64,000 nucleotides of DNA from Nitratireductor indicus C115. GTDB taxonomy: Bacteria; Pseudomonadota; Alphaproteobacteria; Rhizobiales; Rhizobiaceae. The stretch lies in contig NZ_AMSI01000003.1 in NCBI RefSeq assembly GCF_000300515.1, positions 124,001-188,000 of the forward strand, given 5' to 3'. Shown here piece after piece: positions 48,585 through 63,105 of this stretch (position 1 is the first letter of the stretch; every line of letters starts with the position of its first letter). The translations under genes were made by a program, and so were the position numbers. The notes under the pieces were generated by a model. That model ran no database searches. It worked only from the letters and a program-made list of their open reading frames with translations, and was not told the origin of the DNA.

Positions 48585-50432
48585 ATGCACCGCACAACCA
48601 GATCCATTCCGCTTTTCCTGAGCGTCTCCACGCTGGCGCTCGGCCTTTCGGCCTCCGCCATCAACGCTCAGGATTTCGAGCTCGGCACCATCGTCGTGAC
48701 GCCGAACCGTACCCCAACCGAACTTTCCAAGGTCGGCTCCACGGTGGAAGTCGTGGAAAAGAAGGAAATCGAGGAACAGTCCCTGCCGCTGGTCATCGAC
48801 TATCTGACCCTTTTGCCCGGCATCAACCTTTCTCCCCAGGGCGGCATGGGCAAGAACACGACGATGATCATGCGCGGCGCGCGTGGCCAATACGTCAAGA
48901 CGCTGTACAACGGCATCGACATTTCCGACGTTTCCGCGCCTACCCCGCAGGCCTCCTTCGCACATCTGATGGCCGGCGAGGTCGACCGTATCGAGGTGCT
49001 CAAGGGTTCCCAGGGCATGCTCTACGGCTCCGACGCCATTGCTGGCGTCGTCAACATCTCGACGCTTGGCGGCGTGCAAATGGGTGTCACCCACTCCGTC
49101 TTCGGCGAGGCGGGTTCGAACAAGACCTTCCGCGGCGGCTATGCACTTGATGCAGGTTTCGAGCGCGGCCAGTTCGGCTTCTCGCTGTCAGGCGTCAAGA
49201 CCGACGGTTTCTCTGCCGCAGCCGCAGGCACCGAGGATGACGGCTACCGGAACGTGACCGGCACCATCAACGGCCGGTTCGACGCTAGCGAGGACCTTTC
49301 CTTCTTCGCCAACGGCCTCTTCATCAACGGCCGCACCGAATATGACGATGCCTACCCGGCCCCTCTGTACCAGCTCGGCGACAGCGACGCATATTCCACC
49401 TACCATCACTACGCGGGTCGCGTCGGCGCGGATTTCAAGCTCTTCGATGGCCGCCTGAGCAACACGGTCTCTGCCCAGATTTCCGATATCTCGCGCAAGG
49501 AATACAGCAGCTACCCCGGCACCTATGACGGTCGCCGTGTGAAGCTCGACTATCTCGGATCGCTCGAGGTCAGCCCCATGCTGACCGTGAATTTCGGTGC
49601 GGACTGGGAACGCAATCACGCCGAAACATCTGCCGGCATCGACAAATCCGTTTCCATGGGCGGAGGCTGGGTTGAGGCGGTGGCAACACCGGTAGACCCG
49701 CTCACCGTAACGCTTGGCCTGCGTCACGACGAGCATTCCACCTATGGCGGCTACACCACCTGGCGCGCCACCGGCTCCTACCGGTTCGAAGCCACCGGCA
49801 CACGGCTGCACTCCTCCGTCGGAACCGGATTCCGCGCACCGAGCCTTTATGAGCTCTATGCGCCCTTCTACGGCAATGCCGATCTCGAGCCTGAGACGAG
49901 CGTCAGCTTTGATGTCGGCGTCGAGCAAAGCTTCCTTGACGGAAAGCTGACGGCTGACCTTACCTATTTTATGCTCAATATCGACGACTTCATCGGCTAC
50001 GATCCGGTGACCTACCAGAACATCCAGACGGAGGGCACGATCCGCACCCGTGGCGTCGAGGCATCGATGGCCTATGCGGTGACCGACTGGTTCGACCTCG
50101 CCGGCTCCTACACCTACACCAAGGCCACGCGCCCCGACGGCACCCGCGAAGTGCGCATTCCGCGCCATGACATCGCGCTTTCGGCAGTCGTGCGCCCGGC
50201 CGAAAAATGGGAAATCGCAGCCACCGGCAAGATCGCGCTCGACACGGTCGATGGCGGGGAACTCGATGACTACTTCCTGCTGAACGCCAAGGTGGCCTAC
50301 AAGCCGACCGAAAACACCGAGCTCTATCTGCGCGCCGAGAACATTCTCGACCAGGATTATCAGGTCGTGCGCGGCTACAACACACAGGGCTTCTCGGTCT
50401 TCGCCGGCTTCAAGGCGAAATTCGCCCCATGA
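48585..50432 (+). CDS. btuB: TonB-dependent vitamin B12 receptor BtuB
   Basis: A 615-residue outer-membrane receptor. Signal peptide 1-28 (A-I-N-A), TonB box G-T-I-V-V-T-P at 34-40, plug domain about 40-160 (M-R-G-A-R-G-Q-Y, E-V-L-K-G-S-Q-G-M-L-Y-G-S-D-A-I-A-G-V-V-N-I), then a 22-strand barrel ending near F-A-G-F-K-A-K-F. The riboswitch upstream and the BtuFCD-like importer downstream identify cobalamin as cargo. Four bases overlap the next gene (ATGA at 50429-50432). Confidence 0.93.
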   Translation: MHRTTRSIPLFLSVSTLALGLSASAINAQDFELGTIVVTPNRTPTELSKVGSTVEVVEKKEIEEQSLPLVIDYLTLLPGINLSPQGGMGKNTTMIMRGARGQYVKTLYNGIDISDVSAPTPQASFAHLMAGEVDRIEVLKGSQGMLYGSDAIAGVVNISTLGGVQMGVTHSVFGEAGSNKTFRGGYALDAGFERGQFGFSLSGVKTDGFSAAAAGTEDDGYRNVTGTINGRFDASEDLSFFANGLFINGRTEYDDAYPAPLYQLGDSDAYSTYHHYAGRVGADFKLFDGRLSNTVSAQISDISRKEYSSYPGTYDGRRVKLDYLGSLEVSPMLTVNFGADWERNHAETSAGIDKSVSMGGGWVEAVATPVDPLTVTLGLRHDEHSTYGGYTTWRATGSYRFEATGTRLHSSVGTGFRAPSLYELYAPFYGNADLEPETSVSFDVGVEQSFLDGKLTADLTYFMLNIDDFIGYDPVTYQNIQTEGTIRTRGVEASMAYAVTDWFDLAGSYTYTKATRPDGTREVRIPRHDIALSAVVRPAEKWEIAATGKIALDTVDGGELDDYFLLNAKVAYKPTENTELYLRAENILDQDYQVVRGYNTQGFSVFAGFKAKFAP

Positions 50433-51301
50433 GGAAGCCCCGCCGGAAAAGCGTATCCCACCTTTCCGGCCTGATGCTTCTGGCCGGCGCGCTTCTTGCC
50501 GCGCCGGCCAGTGCGACGCCCAAGCGCGTGATGTCGCTCAATCTGTGCACAGACCAGCTTGCCATGACACTCGCAGCCCCCGGTCAGCTCGTCTCCGTAT
50601 CCTTCCTCGCAAAACAGCCCAGCCTGTCCATGCTGCATGAAGAGGCGCTCAAATATCCCGCCAATCGCGGACGCGCCGAAGAAGTCTTTCTCAACGATCC
50701 CGATCTCGTCGTCACCGGCACCTATTCGTTGCACAACACGACTTCCCTTCTGAAGCGCCTCGGATTTGCCGTGGAGGAATTCTCCTTCGTCCAGACGCTG
50801 GATACGATCCCCGACGAAATCCGCCGCATGGGCAGTCTTCTCGGCCAGGAGGAAAAAGCCGAGAAGATCGCCCGCGATTTCACGAGCGAGATCGAAAGCA
50901 TAAAGAAGAAGCAGTGCGGGCGTCGCCCGACCGTCATCGCCTACGATCAGAACGGCATTGCGCCGGGCAAGGGAACGCTTGCGGATTCGGTATTGCAGGC
51001 AGCTGGCTTCGACAATATCGCGGCCGATCTCGGCGTCGTCGGCATGGCGCCTTTCCCGATAGAAGAGGTCATCGCAACCCGTCCGGACGTCATCATCATC
51101 GGCAGGCCGGGAGAAACCCCGACACTCGGCGAGCGCGTACCGCGTCACCCTGCGATCGCCGCACTGCCCGATACGCGGATCGGCTCCTTCGTGCCGCAAG
51201 GCTCCTGGTCCTGCGCCAGCCCTTCGGTGATCGAGGCCGTGCGGGCGCTGGCAAAACTGCGCGCTGAAATCGCACCCTGCCCCGGCGAGGCAACCCAATG
51301 A
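50429..51301 (+). CDS. btuF: Cobalamin ABC transporter substrate-binding protein (BtuF-like)
   Basis: A 290-residue periplasmic binding protein with signal peptide about 1-29 (ending P-A-S-A). The Fe3+/cobalamin-type (PBP2 TroA-like) fold: R-V-M-S-L-N-L-C-T-D-Q-L-A at the start, D-P-D-L-V-V-T-G-T-Y, and R-P-D-V-I-I-I-G-R-P. It overlaps btuB at its start and btuC at its end by four bases each, so expression is coupled. Identification as BtuF rests on the riboswitch and operon; the sequence alone would allow a siderophore. Confidence 0.87.
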   Translation: MRKPRRKSVSHLSGLMLLAGALLAAPASATPKRVMSLNLCTDQLAMTLAAPGQLVSVSFLAKQPSLSMLHEEALKYPANRGRAEEVFLNDPDLVVTGTYSLHNTTSLLKRLGFAVEEFSFVQTLDTIPDEIRRMGSLLGQEEKAEKIARDFTSEIESIKKKQCGRRPTVIAYDQNGIAPGKGTLADSVLQAAGFDNIAADLGVVGMAPFPIEEVIATRPDVIIIGRPGETPTLGERVPRHPAIAALPDTRIGSFVPQGSWSCASPSVIEAVRALAKLRAEIAPCPGEATQ

Positions 51302-52287
51302 AGCGCGCCCTTCTCGTTCCCGTCCTGATGGTTCTGGCACTCGCGCTGTTCGTGCTTTCGCTGCTGGTGGGACCTGCCGATCTCTCCCTGCATGACAGCG
51401 TCATCGGTCTTTTTGCCGGTGGCAGCGAGGCCGCATCCATCATCATGCGCGAAATACGCCTGCCCCGCGCGCTCCTCGGCGTCGCCATCGGCTTCTCGCT
51501 GGGCATTTCTGGCGCAGTGCTTCAGGGCTTCCTGCGCAACCCTCTCGCGGAACCCGGCATTATCGGCGTTTCGTCCACCGCGGCCCTCGGCGCCGTGGCG
51601 ATCTTCTATTCGGGCCTGGCCGGCAGCTCCCTCTACGCGCTGCCCGCCGGCGCACTGATCGGCGCATTGATCGCGGTTCTCATCCTGCTTGCTCTGGCTG
51701 CGAGACAGGGCTCCACCCTGACACTCATTCTTGCAGGTGTCGCCCTTTCGAGCCTTTCGGGTGCACTCACCTCTCTGGTGCTCAACCTCTCGCCAAATCC
51801 TTTTGCCGCCTATGAGATCATCTTCTGGCTCCTGGGATCCCTCAAGGACCGGTCGATGGAGCATGTGGCGCTTGCCCTGCCCCTGATGGCGCTGGGCTGG
51901 ATCCTGATCGCGTTTTCGGCACGCGCCATCGATGCCCTGTCGCTCGGCGAGGAAGCCGCCGCCAGCATGGGCATCCATATGGGCCGCGCTCGCCTTCTGA
52001 TCGTGGTTGGCGTGGCGCTCTGCGTCGGCGCGGCGACAGCCGTCGTGGGCACGATCGGCTTCATTGGACTGGTGGTCCCGCATCTGATCCGTCCGCTGAC
52101 GGACCGGCTCCCTAGCAGCCTTCTGCTTCCGGCGGGGCTCGGCGGCGCTGCCCTTCTTCTGGCAGCCGACATCGCCGCCCGTCTCATCCTTGCCGCCGGC
52201 GAACTCAATGTCGGCGTCTTGACCGCCCTCATCGGCGCGCCCTTCTTCCTGTGGCTCGTCACACGCGCCAGACGGGAGATGCTGTGA
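51298..52287 (+). CDS. btuC: Cobalamin ABC transporter permease (BtuC-like, FecCD family)
   Basis: A 329-residue FecCD permease with about ten hydrophobic helices: R-L-P-R-A-L-L-G-V-A-I-G, G-A-V-L-Q-G-F-L-R-N-P-L-A-E-P-G-I-I-G-V-S, and V-G-T-I-G-F-I-G-L-V-V-P-H-L-I-R (coupling helix motif). It overlaps btuF by four bases, and its stop shares one base with the ATPase start. Confidence 0.92.
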   Translation: MKRALLVPVLMVLALALFVLSLLVGPADLSLHDSVIGLFAGGSEAASIIMREIRLPRALLGVAIGFSLGISGAVLQGFLRNPLAEPGIIGVSSTAALGAVAIFYSGLAGSSLYALPAGALIGALIAVLILLALAARQGSTLTLILAGVALSSLSGALTSLVLNLSPNPFAAYEIIFWLLGSLKDRSMEHVALALPLMALGWILIAFSARAIDALSLGEEAAASMGIHMGRARLLIVVGVALCVGAATAVVGTIGFIGLVVPHLIRPLTDRLPSSLLLPAGLGGAALLLAADIAARLILAAGELNVGVLTALIGAPFFLWLVTRARREML

Positions 52288-53072
52288 TGCGGCTCATTGT
52301 CGAAGCGCTCTCGGTCGAGCTTGGCCGCAGAAAGGTTCTGGACGGGATCGGCCTCGACCTTGCTCCCGGTCAGGTGATCGGACTTCTGGGGCCGAATGGC
52401 GCGGGCAAGTCCACACTCATGCGCGCTCTTGCCGGGCAGGTCGAGGCACATGGCTCGATGCATCTCGGCGCCAATGATCTTGCTGCCCTTGCCCCGGGCC
52501 TGCGCGCGCGCCTTCTGGCCTATCTGCCGCAGACGCGCACGATTGGCTGGCGTCTCACCGTTCGCGATCTGGTGACACTCGGCCGTCTGCCCTGGCGGGG
52601 TTTCGGCAGACGCCTGGCCGAAGAAGACCGCAACGCCATAGACCGCGCGATGGAGATGATGGATATCGTCCCCCTTGCAAACCGCATCGCCACCGAGCTC
52701 TCGGGCGGTGAACAAGTTCGCGTTCTGACGGCGCGCGCCGTGGCGCAGACGACGCCCCTCCTCATCGCCGACGAACCGGCCTCCGGCCTCGATCCCGCCC
52801 ATCAGATCACAATGATGCAGGCTCTGAGGCGCATCGCTGCCGAAGGCGCGACGGTGCTCGTTTCCTTGCATGACCTGACCCTTGCCGCCCGCTGGTGCGA
52901 TCAGGTGGTGATGCTGAAGGGCGGCAGCCTGTTCGCCGCCGGCAAACCCGCACATATCATGAGCGACGACCGCCTGGCCGAGGTCTACGGTGTGACCGCC
53001 CATCGCGCGAAGGATGGCAAAGGGCTGATCCTCACCCCGGTCGATCTGGTGGAGAACAGGCAAAAGCCATGA
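52287..53072 (+). CDS. btuD: Cobalamin ABC transporter ATPase (BtuD-like)
   Basis: A 261-residue ATPase: Walker A G-P-N-G-A-G-K-S-T, signature L-S-G-G-E-Q-V-R-V, Walker B L-L-I-A-D-E-P-A-S-G-L-D (Ala in the third position before the acidic pair, slightly unusual), and H-loop S-L-H-D-L-T. ATG 52287 shares one base with the permease stop. The last four bases overlap tonB. Confidence 0.92.
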   Translation: MRLIVEALSVELGRRKVLDGIGLDLAPGQVIGLLGPNGAGKSTLMRALAGQVEAHGSMHLGANDLAALAPGLRARLLAYLPQTRTIGWRLTVRDLVTLGRLPWRGFGRRLAEEDRNAIDRAMEMMDIVPLANRIATELSGGEQVRVLTARAVAQTTPLLIADEPASGLDPAHQITMMQALRRIAAEGATVLVSLHDLTLAARWCDQVVMLKGGSLFAAGKPAHIMSDDRLAEVYGVTAHRAKDGKGLILTPVDLVENRQKP

Positions 53073-54169
53073 TCGTCTGGCCGGACCTTGCCCGCTCCAT
53101 GCCGGCCGAGGCCGAACCTGTTCTCGCGCCGATTGAAGCGGGCGGTCGATTCCCTGTCCCTCCTATTCGCGACACTGCCGAAGACGGAGCTTCCGGCGCA
53201 GCGCCCGATATTCCGAGCCCCGCGAACGCGGCACGGTTGCCGCCACCCGCAGGAAAGCTCCTGACGGCTGGCCTTGTCGCGACCCTACTGGTTTCGGTTC
53301 TCGCCCACGGCGCGGTGCTCGCACTGCTGCGCGACATGCTTCCCGTCGAAGGCATGGAGGCGGCGAGCAATGCCGTTTCCGTGGAAATCATACTGGAAGC
53401 CCCCCCGGAACCGCCCGCACAGCCCATAGCAGGAAGCAAAGAACAGCCGGAAGAGCAGCTGGCGCAAACGCGCCCTCCCGAGACTGTGGAGCCCCAGGAC
53501 GAGAAATCCACCGAACCCGAACAGGAAAGCAAAAACAGCGACTTGCCGAAAGACCCGGAATCGCCTTCTGAGGACACAGGGGAAACGGCGGAAGCAGAGG
53601 AAAGCCGGCCAATCCCAATGGATCGCCCCGCCGAAGAACCCGTCGCCCTGCCGCTTTCCACAGAGGCTCCACTACCGACCCCGCGTCCCGCTCCACCCCC
53701 AGCGGAAAATCAGCCCCGCATAGCTCCGAAGGTCGCTGCGCCACGCAAGATCGCCAAACCTGCCCCGGCGCAGAAGGCATCGCCTCGCCCCGCACGGCCT
53801 AAGCCAGCGGCAAAGGCTGAAGCCAGACCCGCGCCCCGTTCCTCCAGCGGCAATACCGGGCGCAAGGGCGGAGCGACGAAGGGTGAGCAGGCAGCCTATG
53901 CTCGCCGTCTGCTTGGCCATGTGCAGCGCCATAAAAAATATCCGGCGGCCGCCCAAAACCAGAGACTTTCAGGCCGTGCCGGCTTGTCGATCACCATCGA
54001 CCGATCCGGCCGCCTTATCGACGCGAAACTGCGGAAGGCAACCGGGCACGCGATCCTCGACAAGGAAGCACTCGCCACCGCCCGCCGCGCCGCGCCCTAT
54101 CCGCGTCCACCCGAGGGCGTTGGCGGAAAAACCATCAGCATTTCCGTCAATCTTGATTACAAGCGCTGA
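53069..54169 (+). CDS. tonB: TonB energy transducer dedicated to the B12 operon
   Basis: A 366-residue protein. A single transmembrane helix at about 64-87 contains S-V-L-A-H (Ser76, His80), the S-x-x-x-H motif TonB uses to contact ExbB/ExbD. Then come a Pro/Glu/Lys-rich periplasmic spacer (about 95-275) and the C-terminal TonB domain (about 290-366: Y-A-R-R-L-L-G-H-V-Q-R-H-K-K-Y-P, L-S-I-T-I-D-R-S-G-R-L). The 63-residue cytoplasmic N-terminus before the helix is longer than in classical TonB. Its ATG overlaps btuD by four bases. No exbB/exbD follow, so it must use a pair encoded elsewhere. Confidence 0.9.
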   Translation: MIVWPDLARSMPAEAEPVLAPIEAGGRFPVPPIRDTAEDGASGAAPDIPSPANAARLPPPAGKLLTAGLVATLLVSVLAHGAVLALLRDMLPVEGMEAASNAVSVEIILEAPPEPPAQPIAGSKEQPEEQLAQTRPPETVEPQDEKSTEPEQESKNSDLPKDPESPSEDTGETAEAEESRPIPMDRPAEEPVALPLSTEAPLPTPRPAPPPAENQPRIAPKVAAPRKIAKPAPAQKASPRPARPKPAAKAEARPAPRSSSGNTGRKGGATKGEQAAYARRLLGHVQRHKKYPAAAQNQRLSGRAGLSITIDRSGRLIDAKLRKATGHAILDKEALATARRAAPYPRPPEGVGGKTISISVNLDYKR

Positions 54170-54246: not shown

Positions 54247-55647
54247 TTATCGCGCATCCATCGCTGCGCGGGCGTTGATCAACCCCGAGCCGAAATCATT
54301 GTCGCGGCCCGGCGCACCGAGGTCAACGGCGGTCGTAGCGAGAAGCTCCGACAGCGCCTGCGGTTCGATGCGCTTACCCGAATGCATGAGATTGGCAATC
54401 GCCCCGGACACCACGGCGGCGGCAAACGACGTACCCGTGACCGCATCCATTCCGCCCGGCACCGGCGCCATCACGTCGACACCGGGAGCAGACAGATCGA
54501 TATAACGCCCCCGATTGGCCTGTTCCATGAGCCGGTCCTCAGCATCCGTGGCTGTTACGGCAATCACGCCATCATAGGCCGCAGGATAACCGAAAGGCGC
54601 GCCTGGTCCATTGTTGCCGGCCGCCGCCACAAGCACGACGCCACGCGCCATGGCATTGGCGCAAGCAGCATCGAAAAGCTCATTTTCCGGGCCGACAAAA
54701 CTCATATTGACGATTTCCGCCCCCTGCTCCACCGCCCAGTCGAGAGCAGCAAGAAGCACATCCGCACTCGAAACACCCGCTTCGAAAGCCCGCGCGTGGA
54801 GCAGCCGCACGCCGGGCGCGACGCCGCGAAACGCTCCGCGTCCGGCAATCAGACCAGAAATCGAAGTGCCATGCCCGCGATCCTCCACCGGCATATCCGG
54901 CAAGGCATCGAAGTTCTCGGCAACCGCATCCTTCAGGGCCGGATGCTCCGGATCCAAGGCCGTATCGATGACGGCGACACTGACATTCTCACCGCTCGCA
55001 GCCCCCGCATCGAGTGCAATGCGCTCGAAAGCGTAGTTGACGAGGCTCGCTGCCTGCTGGAGTTCGAACACATGGTTGGGCGCGCGTGTGGCAAGGCGTC
55101 CCTCGTCGGCCAGCTGTGCGAGCACAATGCTCACCGGCCGCCCATCGGGAATGCCGAAGCGCGCAACCGTCTGCCCGAGCAGGCCCGAAACCCGCGCCGA
55201 ACGCAGTTCGAGGCCGAACTGCTGGGCGATTTCCGTCGCAACCCCGGCTCCGCCATCGAGCGTGACCAGAACCTCGTCGGGAACGAAACGCCCGGCGATT
55301 GCCCGCACCGGCTCGACCACAGGGCGCCTCGCCCCATTCTGGGAGAGCGGAGCGGAAGCAGCGCTTGCAGATTGCGCGCCATCGCTCCCGCTTGGGTTGG
55401 CCTGATCGCCTGCGGCGGAGGGCGCAGCCGGATTGGCGACAGCTCCCTGTCCCGGTCCGAAAAGCTCGGCCAGCACGGGCGGCAGAAAAATGACATTGCG
55501 TCCAGCCAAAGGCCTTTCCGTTGCAGGGTCGGCATCTGCGGCAGCAGGTTCCTGCGCTGACGCGAAGGAACCCGCAAACAGCAGAACGCCAAAGCAAAGT
55601 GCGGCAATGCCGCGCTTTGCCAATGTGCCGTACCGGCTACCGATCAA
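54247..55647 (-). CDS. Secreted S8 (subtilisin) serine peptidase beside ECF sigma/anti-sigma genes
   Basis: A 466-residue exported subtilase. Signal peptide about 8-31 (F-A-S-A), low-complexity A/P/S/G stretch 65-105, a prodomain-like region 120-200 (F-V-P-D-E-V-L-V-T-L), then the catalytic domain: Asp228 in V-I-D-T-A-L-D, His259 in D-R-G-H-G-T-S, Asn345 in A-A-G-N-N-G, Ser407 in V-T-G-T-S-F-A-A. All residues of the triad are present. Start TTG 55647 has GGAGAGG close upstream; longer frames run through the anti-sigma gene. It is 16 bases downstream of the anti-sigma gene and probably in one operon, which suggests that it is a target or a proteolytic partner of the sigma switch. Confidence 0.88.
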   Translation of the reverse strand: MIGSRYGTLAKRGIAALCFGVLLFAGSFASAQEPAAADADPATERPLAGRNVIFLPPVLAELFGPGQGAVANPAAPSAAGDQANPSGSDGAQSASAASAPLSQNGARRPVVEPVRAIAGRFVPDEVLVTLDGGAGVATEIAQQFGLELRSARVSGLLGQTVARFGIPDGRPVSIVLAQLADEGRLATRAPNHVFELQQAASLVNYAFERIALDAGAASGENVSVAVIDTALDPEHPALKDAVAENFDALPDMPVEDRGHGTSISGLIAGRGAFRGVAPGVRLLHARAFEAGVSSADVLLAALDWAVEQGAEIVNMSFVGPENELFDAACANAMARGVVLVAAAGNNGPGAPFGYPAAYDGVIAVTATDAEDRLMEQANRGRYIDLSAPGVDVMAPVPGGMDAVTGTSFAAAVVSGAIANLMHSGKRIEPQALSELLATTAVDLGAPGRDNDFGSGLINARAAMDAR

Positions 55648-55663
55648 GACCCTCTCCCATCGT

Positions 55664-56317
55664 TCACTCCGCCGGTCGCCGACCGGCAACAACGGTTGCG
55701 ACGACGCCTGTCTCCTGCAAACGCGCGACAATATCGTCATATTGCGCGCCGTTTTCGGCGGGCACAACCACACGATACAGTCCGCCAGGCAAGGGGCCCG
55801 CATCGATCTTGAGCTTCAGCGCGCCAAGGGCCGCCGAAACATCGGCGATAGCCGCATCCTCCTTGAAGGTGACGAAGGCGAAGGGCGCATCGGCGGTTTC
55901 TGTACCCGCCACAGAGAAATCGGTCCGCTCGGACAGGTTGAGCCAGACCGTTTGTCCGACGAGAATGGCAATGGCGAGCCCTGCCGCCACCCAGGCTGCC
56001 TGCACGGGCATGGAGGGCAGGAAGCGCGCCAGCCTCTCGCGCAGGGACAAGGCCGGCTGTCGCTGTGGCCCCGCCTCGCTTTCGAGCGCTTCGGAAAAGC
56101 GGGCAAGCGCATCGGCAGGCGGACGGATTGCCTCATTCGTCTCCATCGTGGCGGAATACTCCGCTTCCGCGTCGGCAAGCGAGGCCATCGCGTCGGGATC
56201 GGAGGCAAGCCATTCCTCCACTTCATGCAACTCCGCGCCTGAAAGCGTTCCATTGAGGAAGAAAGGCAGGAGAGCCTCGAGCCGGTCGCGGCGGTTGGAA
56301 AGAGCTTTGTCGTTCAT
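55664..56317 (-). CDS. Transmembrane anti-sigma factor
   Basis: A 217-residue protein: N-terminal cytoplasmic part (1-105) with the helical anti-sigma arrangement (L-P-F-F-L-N-G-T-L-S-G-A-E-L-H-E-V-E-E-W-L), one transmembrane helix about 107-127 (A-A-W-V-A-A-G-L-A-I-A-I-L-V-G), and an 85-residue periplasmic domain (about 135-217). It has no zinc H-x3-C-x2-C motif. The periplasmic domain looks like an alpha/beta sandwich (see findings). It overlaps the sigma gene by four bases (ATGA at 56314-56317), the usual layout for sigma/anti-sigma pairs. Confidence 0.85.
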   Translation of the reverse strand: MNDKALSNRRDRLEALLPFFLNGTLSGAELHEVEEWLASDPDAMASLADAEAEYSATMETNEAIRPPADALARFSEALESEAGPQRQPALSLRERLARFLPSMPVQAAWVAAGLAIAILVGQTVWLNLSERTDFSVAGTETADAPFAFVTFKEDAAIADVSAALGALKLKIDAGPLPGGLYRVVVPAENGAQYDDIVARLQETGVVATVVAGRRPAE

Positions 56318-56886
56318 GGCCAGCCTCGATCGTATCCAGCCGCCTTCAAAGCCTCGCCGAGCTTCTTGCGGGCGTAAAACATTCTCGTCTTCACGGTGGC
56401 GACCGGCACGGCGAGAATATCGCCGATCTCCGTCACGGACTTGCCATGGTAGTAGGCAAGGTCGACCACCTCGCGATGTTCATCGGACAGGCCGTCGACG
56501 AAACGGCGCAATGCGGACGCCTTGTCGTCCTTCATCGTCACCACTTCGGGCGTATCGGCGCCGTCAGCCACGGCTTCAGCCTGCCCCTCATCCAGTGCTT
56601 CCTCGCTGCGTTTGCGCAGCATCGAAAGCGCCTTGAAGCGGGCAATGCCGAGAAGCCAGGTCGAAACCTGTGCGCGTCCCTCGAAGCGAGCCGCCTGGCG
56701 CCACACTTCCAGAAACACTTCATTTGCAACATCGTCTGCCATGGTCTCCGATCCCGTCTGGCGCATCACGAAACGGTAGACCCGTGCGTGGTGGCGCATG
56801 AACAGGAGCCTGAGCGCCGCACGATCGCCGCGCGCCACCCTTGCCACGAGATCGGCATCGGACGTCTCGCCCGAACCACCGCTCAT
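56314..56886 (-). CDS. ECF (sigma-70 family) RNA polymerase sigma factor
   Basis: A 190-residue ECF sigma factor. Region 2 about 25-95 (L-F-M-R-H-H-A-R-V-Y-R-F-V, D-D-V-A-N-E-V-F-L-E-V-W-R, S-T-W-L-L-G-I-A-R-F-K-A-L) and region 4 about 125-185 (L-S-D-E-H-R-E-V-V-D-L-A-Y-Y-H-G-K-S-V-T-E-I-G, V-P-V-A-T-V-K-T-R-M-F-Y-A-R-K-K-L). It directs transcription of its own operon and probably other envelope genes when released by the anti-sigma factor. Repeat copy C lies 78 bases upstream. Confidence 0.93.
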   Translation of the reverse strand: MSGGSGETSDADLVARVARGDRAALRLLFMRHHARVYRFVMRQTGSETMADDVANEVFLEVWRQAARFEGRAQVSTWLLGIARFKALSMLRKRSEEALDEGQAEAVADGADTPEVVTMKDDKASALRRFVDGLSDEHREVVDLAYYHGKSVTEIGDILAVPVATVKTRMFYARKKLGEALKAAGYDRGWP

Positions 56887-56963
56887 GGCCGGCCCTTCGC
56901 CACTGTGTCGCGCGGCGGGACGATTAGGTTCATCGCATTTCCCCTTTTTCAGCGAACGCTAAA

Positions 56964-57008
56964 GCATTTTGCCACCAGAGGAAATCGTCTGATGTCCCCA
57001 TAATGGGG
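56964..57008 (-). repeat. Intergenic palindromic repeat, copy C (degenerate)
   Basis: GCATTTTGC, then CAGAGG...ATCGTCTGA and GTCC-CA-AATGG follow the pattern of copies A and B, with more mismatches and an altered outer arm. It lies upstream of the sigma gene, in the same orientation as the other two copies. Confidence 0.45.
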
Positions 57009-57119
57009 AGAAAACAACAGGATAGAACGTCCGCCCCGCATCCCACGCAAGCCCCGGCGTCTTCATGCTTGCGCCTGCTCCACACCTTTCCCGTGAACCT
57101 TTTCGTTCCCCAGTCACAC

Positions 57120-57379
57120 AGACCCGTCAGGGTTCGCATGGTGCGCGCCCGGAAAGGAGTGTTCCCATGACACGTAACGACCAACGCCGAAGTGTGACGG
57201 AACCACCGCCTGCCCCGGTGGGCATGGTTTTGTTGACGCTACGGAAACCGAGGCGTACCCTTGCCTGCGACGGGGTTTTGAGTGGCCCCGCTTCGGGGGA
57301 TTTTGCCGGAAACACAGGGACCGGGCGCATCAAGGACGCCCAGCCGGCAACCCTCCCGAACGGCGGCGGGAGGTATGTC
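57120..57379 (+). promoter_or_regulatory. Long structured leader with ribosome-site hairpin and S-box-like core
   Basis: About 260 bases with no convincing ORF before the secreted-protein gene. GGGCG (57323-57327) pairs with CGCCC (57337-57341), and CCTCCC (57352-57357) pairs with the ribosome site GGGAGG (57368-57373), which could hide it. GCCGGCAACCCTCCC (57343-57357) after GCATCAAGG resembles the core of SAM-I/SAM-IV (S-box superfamily) riboswitches as I remember it, but the closing P1 stem and later elements are not evident. A hairpin CCCC-gcttc-GGGG lies at 57286-57298. An upstream ATG at 57167 with GAAAGGAG could begin a longer reading frame. Confidence 0.4.
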
Positions 57380-59377
57380 ATGTTCAAGCTCACGGGTTTC
57401 CCGAAGCACTGCAACGGGAAAACGCGGCGCAATCCCGCATCTTTGACCCGGCGCATGCGAACGGGCATTGCAGCATTGGCATTTGCCTTTTCCGCGGGGA
57501 CTTTTCTCTCTGCGCCGGCGAGCGCACAGGAAAACGACGTCGTCCAGCCCGGTTTCATGGCCGTTACCGGCTTTCCCGGAACGATCATTCCCGGTTTCGA
57601 GGAAGGCCTTCTGCCCGGCATCGACCCGGTAGACGAGACCTTCATCGATATGGATCGCGCTTCTCTGCGCATCTTCGACATGACATTCCTCGGCGGGCCT
57701 CCAAAGGGCCAGCTGGTCTTCACGCCGCCTCCTTTCGAAGTCGCGGCCGGCGAGATCGGGCAGGTATTCGGGCTTGCCTATGATGATGGCATCCGCGAGG
57801 AGAGTCCCCGCATCGTACCCAACCTCTATGCGGCGGCCACCTCCTTCCACGGCATCCAGATCGTCACCGACGACGAGGATGAGGACGGCAGACCCGAACG
57901 CCAGAGGCGCGGCGCGCCCGGCGCACGCTTTATGGATGGCCAGTTCGGCGAGAGGAATGGCGGCGGTCCCGGCACGATCTGGAAGATCGATGGCGAGACC
58001 GGTGCGATTTCGCGTTTCGCCGACATCGACACCAACAGCGGCCCCGGCATCGGCAACCTCGCCTTCGACCGGCAGCACCGCCAGTTCTTCGCCTCCGATC
58101 TGGATTCCGGCCTCATCCACCGCATCGACATCGACGGAAACCTGATCGACACTTTCGATCACGGAACCGCAGGCCGCCCCGAACACGGGCTGGATCCGGT
58201 CGCCGATGATGGCGCTGTGATGGACATTCAAGGAGCCGCCTTCGAAGCGGCCGAGCCGCGCTCCTGGGGCTATACCCAGGATGAACGCCGCGTCTACGGC
58301 CTCGCTGTCCATGGCGGCAGGCTTTACTACGCGGTCGGCGAGGAAGCGGAAATCTGGTCGGTCGGTCTCGCGCGAGACGGCAGCTTTGCAGGCGATCCGC
58401 GCTGGGAGCTAACCGTCGAGGCGGAGGAAGACCTTCCCATCACCGATATCGCCTTCGACGGGCGTGGCTTCATGTATCTCGCCCAGCGCGGCAAGGTCGA
58501 AAACCGCTACAACTATTCGAGTTTCGCCGACAGCGGCGAGGCTTCGGTTCTGCGCTACTGGCGCGAGAGCCCGGACGATCCGGAAACCGAAAGCATCTGG
58601 GTTCCGGTCCCGCAGGACTATGCTGTGGGCTTTCCCAGCCCGAACCGCCAGGCGACCGGCGGCATTGACCTGCAATATGGATACGGGGCCGACGGTTTCA
58701 TAAACCGCAACGCCTGTTCCGACACGCTGGTAAAAACGGGAGACCGCCTGCGCGATGATCCTGCCCGCGAAAACGAGCTGATCGAGGGCGGGCCGCTTGC
58801 CGTTCAAGGGGTGCAGCTCACCGCCACCTTCCTGGTGCGGCCTCAGAACGTGCCGCCCTTCGGCTCGTGGTTTGCCGATTATGACGGCTTCTTCGAGGAT
58901 GCCGAAACCACCGGCCATGTCGGCGATGTGGAAGTCTGGCGTCCCTGCGAGGGCCGCGCGGGATGGTACGAACCGATCCCCTATCCGGGCGACTATCCCC
59001 TGCCCGGCTGGCCTCCAGGCTTCCCGCCGCCTCCCGGTGGCGACATTCCGCCCTGCATCGAGATCGAGGCGGCAGAATATTTCTGCACCCCCTCCGGCCT
59101 TGAGGCAGATCTCTACATCCGTGACCGCTCCGGCATCGGTGGCGATGCGCTTGCCGCAAAATCACTGACGCCGGGCGTAAGCGTCTTCCCGCCCAAACAG
59201 ACGGTTCCAAGCCTTGCGACGCCCTTCACTCTTGGCGTGAATGGCAACATTCCCGGCGAAACCGTCGAACTTGGCCTGTGCTTCCATCGCGAGGCCGATG
59301 CCGAGGCGGGCGGTGCGTTCCCCTGTTGCAAGGTGACGCTGCCGCTCAAGACGCCACTTGCAAGCTGCGAACCGTGA
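57380..59377 (+). CDS. Large secreted protein with propeller-like body and shared C-terminal domain
   Basis: A 665-residue exported protein: long-N-region signal peptide (hydrophobic A-A-L-A-F-A-F-S-A-G-T-F-L about 34-46, cleavage near A-S-A-Q about 53). The body (about 90-480) has repeated segments such as G-N-L-A-F-D-R-Q-H-R-Q-F-F-A-S-D and I-T-D-I-A-F-D-G-R-G-F-M-Y-L-A that resemble NHL/propeller blades. A Pro/Gly linker (about 540-555) leads to a Cys-containing C-terminal domain (about 557-665) also found in the next gene. I know no named family. ATG 57380 was chosen (GGGAGG six bases upstream), although an in-frame ATG at 57167 has a better-looking ribosome site. Next gene starts 11 bases after it, so they form one unit. 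Confidence 0.75.
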   Translation: MFKLTGFPKHCNGKTRRNPASLTRRMRTGIAALAFAFSAGTFLSAPASAQENDVVQPGFMAVTGFPGTIIPGFEEGLLPGIDPVDETFIDMDRASLRIFDMTFLGGPPKGQLVFTPPPFEVAAGEIGQVFGLAYDDGIREESPRIVPNLYAAATSFHGIQIVTDDEDEDGRPERQRRGAPGARFMDGQFGERNGGGPGTIWKIDGETGAISRFADIDTNSGPGIGNLAFDRQHRQFFASDLDSGLIHRIDIDGNLIDTFDHGTAGRPEHGLDPVADDGAVMDIQGAAFEAAEPRSWGYTQDERRVYGLAVHGGRLYYAVGEEAEIWSVGLARDGSFAGDPRWELTVEAEEDLPITDIAFDGRGFMYLAQRGKVENRYNYSSFADSGEASVLRYWRESPDDPETESIWVPVPQDYAVGFPSPNRQATGGIDLQYGYGADGFINRNACSDTLVKTGDRLRDDPARENELIEGGPLAVQGVQLTATFLVRPQNVPPFGSWFADYDGFFEDAETTGHVGDVEVWRPCEGRAGWYEPIPYPGDYPLPGWPPGFPPPPGGDIPPCIEIEAAEYFCTPSGLEADLYIRDRSGIGGDALAAKSLTPGVSVFPPKQTVPSLATPFTLGVNGNIPGETVELGLCFHREADAEAGGAFPCCKVTLPLKTPLASCEP

Positions 59378-59388
59378 GGGAGGGAGAG

Positions 59389-62300
59389 ATGACCATGTTC
59401 ACCCGCCTTTCACCGCGCAAATCCATCAGTGATGTCACGGAGACGATCATGAAACCTCTTGCTGGAACCTGGCGCGCTCCGCGCTGGCTCCTGGCGGCGG
59501 GCATGGCGCTCTCCACTGCGCTTATCCCGCTCGCCGTGGCCGGACCGGCCGCCGCTCAAACTCCTGAACTTCGCGAAATCGCCCCGGAAGGACCGGACGG
59601 TCCGCGCCTCGACATCGAGCCGCTCGAGCCCGCCCCCAGTTCCGACAAGCTGGTCCCGTTCTTTTATAAGCGCGGCATCCAGCTCGATTGCGATACCGTG
59701 CAATACCGCCTGCGCTTCGGCGTTCGCGGCGATGCGGAGATCATTTCCGGCCCCGCTGCGGCCCTTGTGCTGGACGCGGTCACCTTCGACCTGAAGGATC
59801 AGATCCCCGCCAATCTCAAGATCACCGATGTGCAGATCTCCGGGGACCTGACCGGCCCCGGCGGCGGGCCGCTTCCGGCCCATATCCTGTCGACATCGGC
59901 CACACCAGACGACACGATGGCGCTCAACGGCTTCCGCCTGTCGCCCAATGATCTGGACGGTGACGGAAGTCCCACGCAACGCTACGGCCACGTCATCATA
60001 ACGGCGAAGATCGACCAGTCGGCCTTCCCGGCGGTGACGAATGTATCCAACCAGGCAGAGATCACCATTCGCCGGACCGACGGCGCCGTGCTCGGCGTCA
60101 TACCCTCGCACAATCCGGAACTGCCCGACGATGGGGACTGGAAGACTGGCGACGCCACGCGCATCGTCATAGACGTTACGGAATGCACGCCGCCCCCACC
60201 GCCGCCGCCGCCCGGCGACCGCCCGGAAGAAGCCTGTTTCAAGGTCGAAACCGGTGAGGTCGACTGTGTCGAGGGTGGTGGTGCCTATATCTATCGTATG
60301 GATGTCGGTCCCGAGATGGCCGGCCGCGTGGTGGCCGTCATGTCGACCACGCCCGGCGTGACCATCGACCCGCCGAACCAGCTCGTTCCGGCAGGCGGCG
60401 GAGAACTGGAATGGGAAATCACCGGTGCCGCTCCCGGCGACACGGTGCATCTCGTCGTCACCGGCATCGAGACCTATGCGGGTCCCGCCGAAGGCGTCGG
60501 CCTGTGCTGCTCGCAGACTGTCGACATCGAGATTCCCGAGGATCTCGAATGCCCGCCCGAAGATGACGGCGAACCCGACATCAAGGTCGAGAAGCGCGCC
60601 GATGAGAGCCTCTGCGAGATCGACGGGCCCTGCGACTTCACCATCCGCGTTTCCAATGCGGGCGACGCGCCCTACACGGGCAAGATCGTATTGGACGAGG
60701 TCACGGGACCGGGCAGCGCCACCGTTATCAGCGGCCCCAATGCGCCCTGGAGCTGCGCCCCGATGACAAGCCCCATGTCGTGCGAACACCCTGAAACCAC
60801 ACTCAATCCGGGCGAGTTCGTCGAGTTGAAGCTCGGCTTCCAGCCCGGTGCGGAATGGAGTTGGGGAGCGATCCGCAATTGCGCCGCCTTCGATTACACG
60901 GCAAGCGGTCACGATGCCCCGTTCGGCATCCTGACCAACGATCGGGCCTGCGCCGTGATCGCCATCTGCCTGCCGGGCGGTTCCGACTGCACGCCGCCCG
61001 AGGACAAGACGCCGGATATCGGCGTTCGCAAGCGCGCCGATCCGGCCCAGTGCACACCGGACGGGTTCTGCACCTATGTCATCACCGTCTACAATGCAGG
61101 ACTGGACACGATCGACGGGCCGGTCAGCTTCGTCGATACCTTCCCGGCCGGCGATGTCGCCTCGGCAACCTTCAGCCCGATGCCGCCCTGGAATTGCTCA
61201 GCCCTTTCGGGCAACAGCTTCCAGTGCGATCATCCGGGACTGACGCTCATTCCGGGCGGCGCCACGGACATTCTGGTGCAGGTAGTCGCGAGCGACTATC
61301 CAACCGACGTGGTGGAGAACTGCGCCAAGGTCACGCCGCTTCCCGGCGAAACCAACCTCGAAAACAACGAGGCCTGCGCAAAAGCCACCATCCCCGGAAT
61401 TCAGGATGGCGAGCCGGCGCTGCGCATTCACAAGACCTGCGAGAATGCGGTCTCGAATGGCGCGGTCGCCTGCCGGATCACGATCACCAATGGCGGTAGT
61501 TCCGCCCCGATGGGTCCGGTCCGCGTCAATGACGCCGCCGAAATCATCGGCAGCGGATCGCCGGTGGATATCGCCTCGGTTACCCCCGATGGACCCGAGT
61601 GGACATGCGACCCGGCTCCGACAGCCTCTCTGGGCTGCCAGATCCCCGGTGCCGTCATGACGCCCGGCACCTCACGTCACTTCGATGTGACGGTGAATGT
61701 CTCGACGGGTGAGCGGTTCGAGAACTGCGCACGCGGCTCCTTCGGCCCCGCGCCGGGCGACGACATCGTCTATCCGTTCGGCGAATCCTGCGCTGAGGGC
61801 GGAACCCGCATCACCGTCGAGAAGACGGGTGACGCCCAGTGCCTCCTGGGTGAGCCCTGCGCCTTCGAGGTGACCATTCGCAATGAAGGTCCTTCGGACA
61901 TCTCCGGCCCCGTGCGGATCGGCGATGCCTTGACGGTGGAAGGGTTCGGCAACGTCCCGGCAGAAATCGTCTCGGTCGAGCCGCCTTTCGGCTGCACGCC
62001 CGAGCCGGCCGCCCTGCCCTTCGTCTGTGAGGCCGACCTGACACTGGCAGCCGGTGAAAGCCGTACCCATGTGGTGACGGTCGAGCTGCCCGCCGAGGGC
62101 GGTCTTGCCAACGAGGTCGGCAATGGAGCCGAGGGCCGCAACTGTGCCGCGGTCGTGCCACCCCAGGCGGATGTGCGCGCCATGTCGATGGTGCCTGGTG
62201 CCGCAGCCAATGGCGACGAACGTCCCTTCGACTGCCACGAATTCCGTGTGCTGGCAGAGGATGAAGGTCCGGATGTGCAGTGTTCGCCGGGTCTGGTGTT

Positions 62301-63105
62301 CAACGGCGACGGGCGGTGCGTGTGCCCCGAGGGCACAAGCTTCCGCAACGGCCAGTGCGTCGGCACCTCCACCGTGCCGTTGCCCACGCCGCGTCCGCCG
62401 GTCGATCCGCGCCCCGAGCGTCCTGACCGCCCGCAACCGGAGGCTCAGTGCCGCCTGCTGCCAGGTCAGATCCGGACACGGGATGGACAGTGTGTCTGCC
62501 CGCGTGGAACGCGCCTCGTGGCGGGTGCCTGTCGCAAACCGGAAGTGCAGCGTGAATGCCCACAGGGCACCACGGGCCGCTATCCGGATTGCCGACCGAT
62601 CGTGCGCCCGGTTTGCCCGCCCGGAACCACCGGCAGGCCGCCGAACTGCCGGCCGGTCGTGCAGCAATGCCGCCTGCTTCCGGGCCAGATCCGCACAAGG
62701 GATGGACAATGTGTCTGCCCGCGCGGAACGCGTCTGGTGGCCGGAGCCTGCCGCAAGCCGGAAGTGCAGCGTGAATGCCCACGCGGCACCACGGGCAGGT
62801 ATCCAAACTGCCGCCCGATCGTGCAGCAGTGCCGCCTGCTTCCGGGCCAGATTCGCACCAAGGACGGGCGTTGCGTCTGCCCGCGTGGAACGCGTCTGGT
62901 GGCCGGTGCCTGCCGCAAGCCGGAAGTGCAGCGCGAATGCCCGCGCGGTACGGTTGGCAAGTTCCCCAACTGCCGCCCGATCGTTCGCCCGACCTGCCCG
63001 CCCGGAACGGTTGGCCGGCCACCGAACTGCCGCAAGGTGAACGTGGCGCCCCAACGGGTGACCCCGCAACTCCTGCGGCCACGCGACACGAACCGGATTC
63101 AGTAA
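59389..63105 (+). CDS. Giant secreted DUF11-repeat protein with cysteine-rich tail
   Basis: A 1238-residue exported protein. Signal segment about 34-57 (L-L-A-A-G-M-A-L-S-T-A-L). An N-terminal domain (about 60-265), a run of eight prolines (about 267-274), the C-rich domain shared with the preceding gene (about 280-385), then four DUF11-like Ig-fold repeats (about 395-960; typical starts I-K-V-E-K-R-A-D, I-G-V-R-K-R-A-D, L-R-I-H-K-T-C, I-T-V-E-K-T-G-D). The tail (1020-1217) holds tandem cysteine-rich units. GAGGGAGG before ATG 59389 supports this start; ATG 59449 (GGAG upstream) gives a shorter, more ordinary signal. DUF11 repeats occur in large surface proteins; adhesion or a surface layer is the likely role. 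The terminator at 63126-63160 ends the unit. Confidence 0.8.
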   Translation: MTMFTRLSPRKSISDVTETIMKPLAGTWRAPRWLLAAGMALSTALIPLAVAGPAAAQTPELREIAPEGPDGPRLDIEPLEPAPSSDKLVPFFYKRGIQLDCDTVQYRLRFGVRGDAEIISGPAAALVLDAVTFDLKDQIPANLKITDVQISGDLTGPGGGPLPAHILSTSATPDDTMALNGFRLSPNDLDGDGSPTQRYGHVIITAKIDQSAFPAVTNVSNQAEITIRRTDGAVLGVIPSHNPELPDDGDWKTGDATRIVIDVTECTPPPPPPPPGDRPEEACFKVETGEVDCVEGGGAYIYRMDVGPEMAGRVVAVMSTTPGVTIDPPNQLVPAGGGELEWEITGAAPGDTVHLVVTGIETYAGPAEGVGLCCSQTVDIEIPEDLECPPEDDGEPDIKVEKRADESLCEIDGPCDFTIRVSNAGDAPYTGKIVLDEVTGPGSATVISGPNAPWSCAPMTSPMSCEHPETTLNPGEFVELKLGFQPGAEWSWGAIRNCAAFDYTASGHDAPFGILTNDRACAVIAICLPGGSDCTPPEDKTPDIGVRKRADPAQCTPDGFCTYVITVYNAGLDTIDGPVSFVDTFPAGDVASATFSPMPPWNCSALSGNSFQCDHPGLTLIPGGATDILVQVVASDYPTDVVENCAKVTPLPGETNLENNEACAKATIPGIQDGEPALRIHKTCENAVSNGAVACRITITNGGSSAPMGPVRVNDAAEIIGSGSPVDIASVTPDGPEWTCDPAPTASLGCQIPGAVMTPGTSRHFDVTVNVSTGERFENCARGSFGPAPGDDIVYPFGESCAEGGTRITVEKTGDAQCLLGEPCAFEVTIRNEGPSDISGPVRIGDALTVEGFGNVPAEIVSVEPPFGCTPEPAALPFVCEADLTLAAGESRTHVVTVELPAEGGLANEVGNGAEGRNCAAVVPPQADVRAMSMVPGAAANGDERPFDCHEFRVLAEDEGPDVQCSPGLVFNGDGRCVCPEGTSFRNGQCVGTSTVPLPTPRPPVDPRPERPDRPQPEAQCRLLPGQIRTRDGQCVCPRGTRLVAGACRKPEVQRECPQGTTGRYPDCRPIVRPVCPPGTTGRPPNCRPVVQQCRLLPGQIRTRDGQCVCPRGTRLVAGACRKPEVQRECPRGTTGRYPNCRPIVQQCRLLPGQIRTKDGRCVCPRGTRLVAGACRKPEVQRECPRGTVGKFPNCRPIVRPTCPPGTVGRPPNCRKVNVAPQRVTPQLLRPRDTNRIQ
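62446..63040 (+). repeat. Tandem cysteine-rich coding repeats
   Basis: Three copies of a unit of about 54 codons begin at 62446, 62665 and 62827. Each starts Q-C-R-L-L-P-G-Q-I-R-T and contains C-V-C-P-R-G-T-R-L-V-A-G-A-C-R-K. Copies 1 and 3 carry an extra unit of about 19 codons (R-P-x-C-P-P-G-T-x-G-R-P-P-N-C-R), absent after copy 2. High nucleotide identity suggests recent duplication. Confidence 0.9.

Follow-up and report, generated by a model that had tools for sequence, protein, structure and literature searches.

The locus at positions 54247-63105 of a 64 kb stretch of the 4.99 Mb draft genome of Nitratireductor indicus C115 (the whole stretch is called the window here) carries two divergent groups of genes. 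An operon on the reverse strand encodes an extracytoplasmic function (ECF) sigma factor (SIG), an anti-sigma factor (ANTI) and a subtilisin-like protease (SUB), together the trio, and two genes for secreted proteins, SEC1 and SEC2 (the pair), run away from it on the forward strand. The features are as follows.

54247..55647, reverse: SUB, secreted S8 (subtilisin-like) protease (Pfam Peptidase_S8, catalytic motifs)
55054..55290, reverse: SUB prodomain, placed by alignment with homologues whose prodomain matches PF22148
55664..56317, reverse: ANTI, anti-sigma factor with a cytoplasmic helical domain, one transmembrane helix and a periplasmic domain (SIG overlap, weak zf-HC2 match, AlphaFold2 model)
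55682..55885, reverse: ANTI periplasmic domain, resembling a subtilase prodomain (AlphaFold2 model, profile match, PF22148 in part of the homologues, fold matches)
55934-56005, reverse: ANTI transmembrane helix, residues about 105-128, read from the model and the sequence
56314..56886, reverse: SIG, ECF sigma factor of the PRK12515 subfamily (NCBIfam, Pfam Sigma70_r2 and Sigma70_r4)
56907..56932, reverse: TGAACC-N16-CGAC, predicted ECF promoter serving the trio; 20 bases separate its 3' end from the SIG start codon
57094..57119, forward: predicted ECF promoter of the pair, TGAACC-N16-ACAC, with a -10 element that is degenerate in this strain and AGAC or CGAC in relatives
57167..57379, forward: leader, an open frame in phase with SEC1, either a long N-terminal extension or a leader open reading frame
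57380..59377, forward: SEC1, signal peptide by reading, main region 57515-58999, shared Cys-containing domain 59000-59374
59389..63105, forward: SEC2, signal peptide by reading, DUF7929, shared domain 60178-60552, four DUF11-type domains, Cys-rich tail 62266-63102

An earlier reading of this DNA (the original prediction) had described overlapping sigma and anti-sigma genes with a subtilase directly downstream, and two secreted proteins with a common domain, one of them carrying DUF11-like repeats and a cysteine-rich tail. We found the same arrangement. SIG and ANTI share four bases (ATGA), the S8 gene starts 16 bases past the ANTI stop codon and SEC2 starts 11 bases past that of SEC1. The shared domain (SEC1 59015-59356, SEC2 60190-60537; mutual E-values of 9e-10 and 2e-9) recurs in both proteins of relatives, and SEC2 contains DUF11 by Pfam and a tail with 26 cysteines among 279 residues.

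Family models confirm the assignment of SIG as an ECF sigma factor of the PRK12515 subfamily (285.7 bits against an NCBIfam cut-off of 236; Pfam Sigma70_r2 and Sigma70_r4 regions present). By its Pfam domain (Peptidase_S8, E=1.9e-44) and a catalytic triad complete by motif (Asp228, His259 and Ser407, plus Asn346), SUB is classified as an S8 peptidase; its start codon is probably the TTG at 55647 and its signal peptide was recognized by reading.

Two conserved units and their promoter

We searched 101 relatives, together with 80 named loci and 289 genomes of the class (labels G and L denote genomes and loci, respectively). ANTI was found in 22 of the 101 relatives and SEC1 in 32, while the class-wide survey returned an ANTI match in 22 genomes and a SEC1 match in seven. 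SIG lies beside ANTI in all 80 named loci and SUB is present in 77, the remaining three ending at a contig edge just after ANTI. In the stretches taken from the relatives, too, each ANTI adjoins SIG and is followed by an S8 gene wherever the contig continues. At each of the 11 loci outside the window's own genome whose ANTI match covers the periplasmic domain, SIG and an S8 gene lie within the 1.5 kb flanks. The ANTI-bearing group extends to several families outside the window's order, and SEC1 and SEC2 stay together throughout the full-length subfamily. The neighbourhood of the trio and that of the pair are each maintained across families, beyond chance.

The original prediction treated the five genes as one physical module. 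The trio and the pair are divergent neighbours in 11 genomes of the same genus, in G041 and in G092, which belongs to another family. Position is not the conserved link between them, because only 10 of the 80 named loci have both units adjacent; 61 have no pair within about 9 kb upstream of SIG, and nine are cut by a contig end. The trio also occurs without SEC1 matches in G079 and G094. With the units apart in most relatives, the neighbourhood survey refutes the proposed linkage and leaves the functional link unrefuted.

The functional link is carried by the promoter. Across 13 aligned intergenic regions, TGAACC is present on both strands, and a 16-base spacer separates it from CGAC or a variant thereof, an arrangement that is conserved in another family. 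The strict motif precedes SIG in 77 of the 80 named loci. Among the 28 genomes behind these loci, 27 have a SEC1 of at least 67% identity, and in 26 of the 28 best loci the SEC1 domain starts 421-453 bases downstream of the motif. In Mesorhizobium and Aminobacter, where the units are apart in all 24 genomes, the motif occupies the same interval of 421-453 bases in 23. The two of the 28 best loci that lack it belong to Nitratireductor luteus, with ACAC and GCAC instead of NGAC in its two promoters, and to Aminobacter HY435, which has a distant SEC1 only. Both units still carry the motif in G048, where about 175 kb separates them, and in G071, where each is on its own contig.

We then compared genomes with and without the trio, using the 53 of 56 records that have enough upstream sequence and leaving out G080 and G096 (SEC1 without ANTI). 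The strict motif is present at SEC1 in 39 of 45 trio genomes and in one of eight without the trio (Fisher P=8e-5, for genomes that are not phylogenetically independent). Other spacers from 10 to 22 bases gave zero or one matching record, except for 20 bases, where 14 records match because of a repeated GAC. Several observations weigh against a common promoter: the window's own SEC1 promoter (TGAACC-N16-ACAC) is one of the six misses, the distant SEC1 relatives of G062, G074 and G097 lack the strict motif, and G076 has the motif although ANTI was not found there even by profile. The persistence of the promoter in unlinked units is nevertheless strong comparative evidence for the earlier suggestion that the sigma factor could control both sides, and we consider it very probable that SIG does so. 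The genome comparisons indicate that trio and pair are each conserved as a unit and that a promoter, rather than position, joins them.

By itself, TGAACC-N16-CGAC is unspecific, with 23 sites in the window's own genome, many of them within genes, compared to seven for a backwards control. Its longer form is specific: 11 Nitratireductor genomes contain 36 copies of TGAACCTTT-N13-NGAC (three of the backwards pattern), and 11 Mesorhizobium and Aminobacter genomes contain 53 of TGAACCTTT-N13-CGAC (one backwards), counts that include the SIG and SEC1 promoters. Other sites of this type precede small proteins that look exported by reading. One is a BA14K-like protein of the window's own genome (Pfam PF07886, 46.0 bits, cut-off 26), also found at L132 and L260; more belong to small families without Pfam matches, and there is a DoxX protein in Mesorhizobium (L262). 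The regulon seems to include the BA14K-like protein along with other small proteins. Some of the motif sites fall within genes, probably by chance. A further site of the TGAACCTTT type (G000:C13:62849-62874) lies 88 bases ahead of a gene named patatin-like by reading, and may be another target or chance.

The secreted pair and its leader

SEC2 matches PF25551 (DUF7929, E=1.2e-79), PF01345 (DUF11, E=1e-20) and PF24346 (DUF7507, 27.9 bits, cut-off 27), with no sorting domain among its Pfam matches. According to the available parts of a 2025 survey (PMC12617251), DUF7929 belongs to the CnaA-like families and is predicted to form an intramolecular isopeptide bond (Lys86, Asp129 and Asn213 in A0A090G7K7), DUF11 and DUF7507 are renamed CLIPPER and CLIPPER_2, and one DUF11 domain resists proteolysis. 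The corresponding DUF7929 residues of SEC2 are K94, D137 and N221, whose spacings of 43 and 84 residues equal those of A0A090G7K7. In 28 aligned rows, some from duplicated species, the lysine and the aspartate are conserved in all 28 and the asparagine in 27. Four more Lys-Asp-Asn sets, picked by reading, lie in the DUF11-type domains, and their residues are each kept in 23 to 28 of the rows. SEC2 is therefore predicted to hold five isopeptide cross-links and, because the DUF7929 triad and the four DUF11-type sets are conserved, it looks like the stalk of a fibrillar adhesin. It shares its families and the published DUF7929 triad spacing with the CLIPPER-type adhesins in the parts of PMC12617251 at hand, and differs from them by its Cys-rich tail and by the domain that it has in common with SEC1.

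SEC1 has no Pfam or NCBIfam match. Its main region is propeller-like by reading alone, its AlphaFold2 model, built from 10 close sequences, is too poor for use (mean predicted local distance difference test score, pLDDT, of 43), and a comparison with PDB sequences gave two matches only, at E-values of 0.4-0.5. In the distant relatives L089, L091, L094, L097 and L098, SEC1-like and DUF11 regions are fused in one frame, in support of the view that SEC1 and SEC2 act together. At two Nitratireductor loci, SEC1 is split across two overlapping frames (L062 5737-8044 and L080 1805-3891), either through sequencing errors or as broken genes.

The SEC1 start codon (ATG at 57380) has a good ribosome-binding site and lies inside a longer in-frame open reading frame that begins at 57167. 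The leader frame is in phase with SEC1 in 32 of 33 sequences and is broken in a further genome, G005, outside that set; its third-position bias is weak. SEC1 may have an unusual N-terminal extension of about 70 residues. The structured RNA that had been proposed for this leader was rejected for now: its folding energy is only 1.4 standard deviations better than that of shuffled sequences (z = -1.42), the consensus has three pairs, none of them covarying, and Rfam gave no match at the gathering score and one at chance level. The leader also contains a second promoter-like element (57233-57261), TTGAC followed, 17 bases after the hexamer, by TAnnnT, with TTGAC and CGTA invariant across 18 aligned leaders; it is possibly a housekeeping promoter of SEC1-SEC2.

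The periplasmic domain of the anti-sigma factor

The zf-HC2-like helical domain at the N-terminus that marks class I (ZAS-like) anti-sigma factors is matched weakly in 15 of 17 ANTI members (the window's protein reaches 13.6 bits, cut-off 22.2), and the cut-off is exceeded at L294, L297 and L302. Its periplasmic domain was modelled by AlphaFold2 with a beta-alpha-beta-beta-alpha-beta topology (pLDDT 82-92 in blocks of 10 residues), and the fold matches of this model include subtilisin propeptides (Foldseek probability 0.99). The Pfam prodomain model PF22148 (gathering cut-off 21 bits) is exceeded by three of 27 ANTI homologues (27.1, 22.4 and 21.8 bits), and an ANTI profile of 111 anti-sigma rows matches the profile of the SUB prodomain at P=2.5e-4. 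For comparison, among nine aligned SUB prodomains, two score above the PF22148 cut-off, three score below it and four, including the window's own, have no match. In part of the ANTI family, the resemblance to a prodomain is visible in the sequence itself, and the profile and fold comparisons together suggest that the ANTI periplasmic domain is probably prodomain-derived or prodomain-like.

Several results weigh against this assignment. The three ANTI proteins that pass PF22148 all come from one genus, the window's own ANTI is below the cut-off, the predicted fold is a common one (ferredoxin-like) and the AsnC/Lrp and NapD folds score slightly above the propeptides by Z-score. Moreover, the ANTI profile matched no propeptide among PDB sequences.

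Variants of the trio were also observed. At L303, ANTI appears to be inverted relative to SIG and the S8 gene, which flank it, an unusual layout. A search for plasmid-borne ANTI relatives with a single protein gave none at an E-value of 1e-3. On a Methylocapsa plasmid (L291), a PRK12515 sigma gene adjoins a gene that is ANTI-like by reading, with an S8 gene nearby, upstream instead of downstream; the ANTI-like protein has no Pfam prodomain match. An S8 protein at L083 (245-2200) has CPRGYxGxxPxC-type repeats ahead of its prodomain, resembling the Cys-rich tail of SEC2. Beyond SUB, positions 48585-54169 of the window hold an operon likely to serve heme or siderophore uptake, with a TonB-type receptor, a periplasmic binding protein, a permease, an ATPase and a TonB-like gene (names by reading; TonB_C alone by Pfam).

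Proposed mechanism, alternatives and known systems

We propose that SIG, held by the membrane protein ANTI, would drive its own operon, SEC1-SEC2 and a few genes for small secreted proteins from TGAACC-N16-CGAC promoters. In the off state, the ANTI periplasmic domain would either bind mature SUB in the manner of a propeptide or compete with the prodomain that SUB itself carries. SUB would become free or build up in response to an external substrate, to altered pH or folding, or through accumulation, and active SUB would then cut ANTI outside the membrane. RseP, which is present, and cytoplasmic proteases would complete the breakdown of ANTI and release SIG. The released sigma factor would make more SUB and ANTI, and SEC1, SEC2 (as a cross-linked, adhesin-like fibre) and the BA14K-like protein would reach the cell surface.

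The gene order, the promoter sharing, the regulon candidates, the isopeptide triads and, for part of the ANTI family, the likeness to a prodomain are the parts of this model that the sequences show. Promoter sharing is well supported; the switch mechanism (binding of SUB by ANTI, the cut made in ANTI by SUB, and the signal) and the adhesive role of SEC2 are what we infer. We lean slightly towards a self-contained cell-surface regulon in which ANTI engages SUB in a propeptide-like manner, coupling the state of the protease to sigma release, and we put a direct interaction between ANTI and SUB at a little better than even. That SUB is the site-1 protease for ANTI is a tentative proposal, somewhat short of even. 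We hold with similar reserve the wider idea that ANTI captured the prodomain of the neighbouring subtilase, so that engagement of the protease with the propeptide mimic would be the signal itself and the cell would read the occupancy or maturation of an exported protease and answer, through one promoter type, with a cross-linked surface coat. The prodomain-like ANTI domain lends indirect support to the earlier suggestion of a sigma switch that the subtilase could trigger.

The main rival explanation treats SUB as no more than an output of the sigma factor. The ANTI domain, with its common ferredoxin-like fold, would then sense a different input, such as a ligand, a lipid or the redox state, and would be cut by a generic site-1 protease. 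We consider this unlikely, although it draws on two observations. In Sinorhizobium meliloti, RpoE6 activates the S8 gene SMa0142, as stated in the available parts of PMC6180224; this precedent is qualified by the corresponding anti-sigma factor of strain R28, which gives no prodomain match. The AsnC/Lrp and NapD folds also match the ANTI domain at least as well as propeptides do. Conversely, the Pfam prodomain model is over its cut-off in three ANTI proteins, the ANTI profile resembles SUB's own prodomain and the ANTI periplasmic domain is associated with a neighbouring S8 gene in 11 of 11 cases versus none of 11, all of which speak against this rival.

Subtilase propeptides are potent inhibitors, and the ANTI domain could instead be a safety device that inhibits prematurely active SUB at the inner membrane, while the main task of SUB would be to trim or shed the exported proteins (SEC1, SEC2 and the small surface proteins) and a different trigger would release the sigma factor. 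This is improbable in our estimate. The promoter type that SUB has in common with the surface proteins would suit such a role, whereas the stalk domains of SEC2 carry predicted isopeptide bonds, which make a related DUF11 domain resistant to proteolysis according to the available parts of PMC12617251; in addition, the trio is present in genomes without SEC1 matches (G079 and G094). Finally, the two units might be unrelated and divergent by happenstance in this genus. Their separation in the Mesorhizobium and Aminobacter loci long enough to judge would fit, but the reading is already contradicted by the promoter data, since the shared promoter persists in separated units, and we regard it as very improbable.

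The nearest described case is RpoE6-EcfR6 with SMa0142 of S. meliloti (ECF26), which likewise has an ECF sigma factor, a membrane anti-sigma factor and an adjoining S8 gene. As stated in the available parts of PMC6180224, expression of the RpoE6 operon and of the serine protease gene SMa0142 increases when RpoE6 is overexpressed, the RpoE6-EcfR6/S8 arrangement is widely conserved in group ECF26, and the mechanism that activates the ECF26 group in S. meliloti is called hypothetical. The original prediction of an undescribed system is narrowed accordingly, as the association of sigma factor, anti-sigma factor and S8 gene is partly described. We located such a set, annotated as S8, sigma and anti-sigma genes, on pSymA of strain R28, with the SMa0142 promoter given in PMC6180224 present in that stretch, and found matches to SUB and SIG on pSymA of Rm1021.

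In S. meliloti the S8 gene is divergent, whereas it is third in the operon in the window, and the ECF26 promoter (-35 GGAATA, -10 GT in the available parts of PMC6180224) is not that of the trio and SEC1 (TGAACC-N16-CGAC). The S. meliloti sigma factor is about 26% identical to SIG over 151 residues, with PRK12515 not among its 25 best models listed, and the C-terminus of the S. meliloti-type anti-sigma factor (R28) gives no prodomain match. Because layout, promoter, sigma subfamily and anti-sigma C-terminus differ, we did not file the window's system under ECF26. The parts of PMC6180224 at hand contain no link to SEC1/SEC2 or BA14K.

Two other systems share elements of the proposed mechanism. 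RpoE-RseA-DegS-RseP of Escherichia coli, a case of regulated intramembrane proteolysis, has a single-pass anti-sigma factor, a periplasmic site-1 protease (DegS, from the available parts of PMC8103513; the role proposed here for SUB) and RseP, whereas the window's site-1 candidate would be a co-encoded subtilase and its sensor resembles that subtilase's prodomain. In RsiV/SigV of Bacillus subtilis, a periplasmic anti-sigma domain is also an enzyme receptor, RsiV binding lysozyme directly (from the available parts of PMC4183432); there the enzyme is an outside signal, whereas in the window it would be the cell's own protease. Among the matches listed for open-licence PMC literature, titles and abstract openings gave nothing on an anti-sigma factor with a subtilase prodomain or on this operon.

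Little is known about how bacteria monitor the condition of the proteases that they export, and many ECF groups have no known input. A propeptide-like sensor encoded with its protease would be a concrete, testable answer for this sigma group, and an anti-sigma factor that appears to bear a relative of the inhibitory part of the neighbouring protease, in a switch that probably activates surface proteins, suggests a new way to sense extracellular events. With this promoter, the regulon that includes two uncharacterised secreted families, of which one has predicted internal cross-links, can be defined directly, both in Nitratireductor and in the nitrogen-fixing symbionts of the genus Mesorhizobium. 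If the captured prodomain is true, it would constitute a new mode of ECF sigma control.

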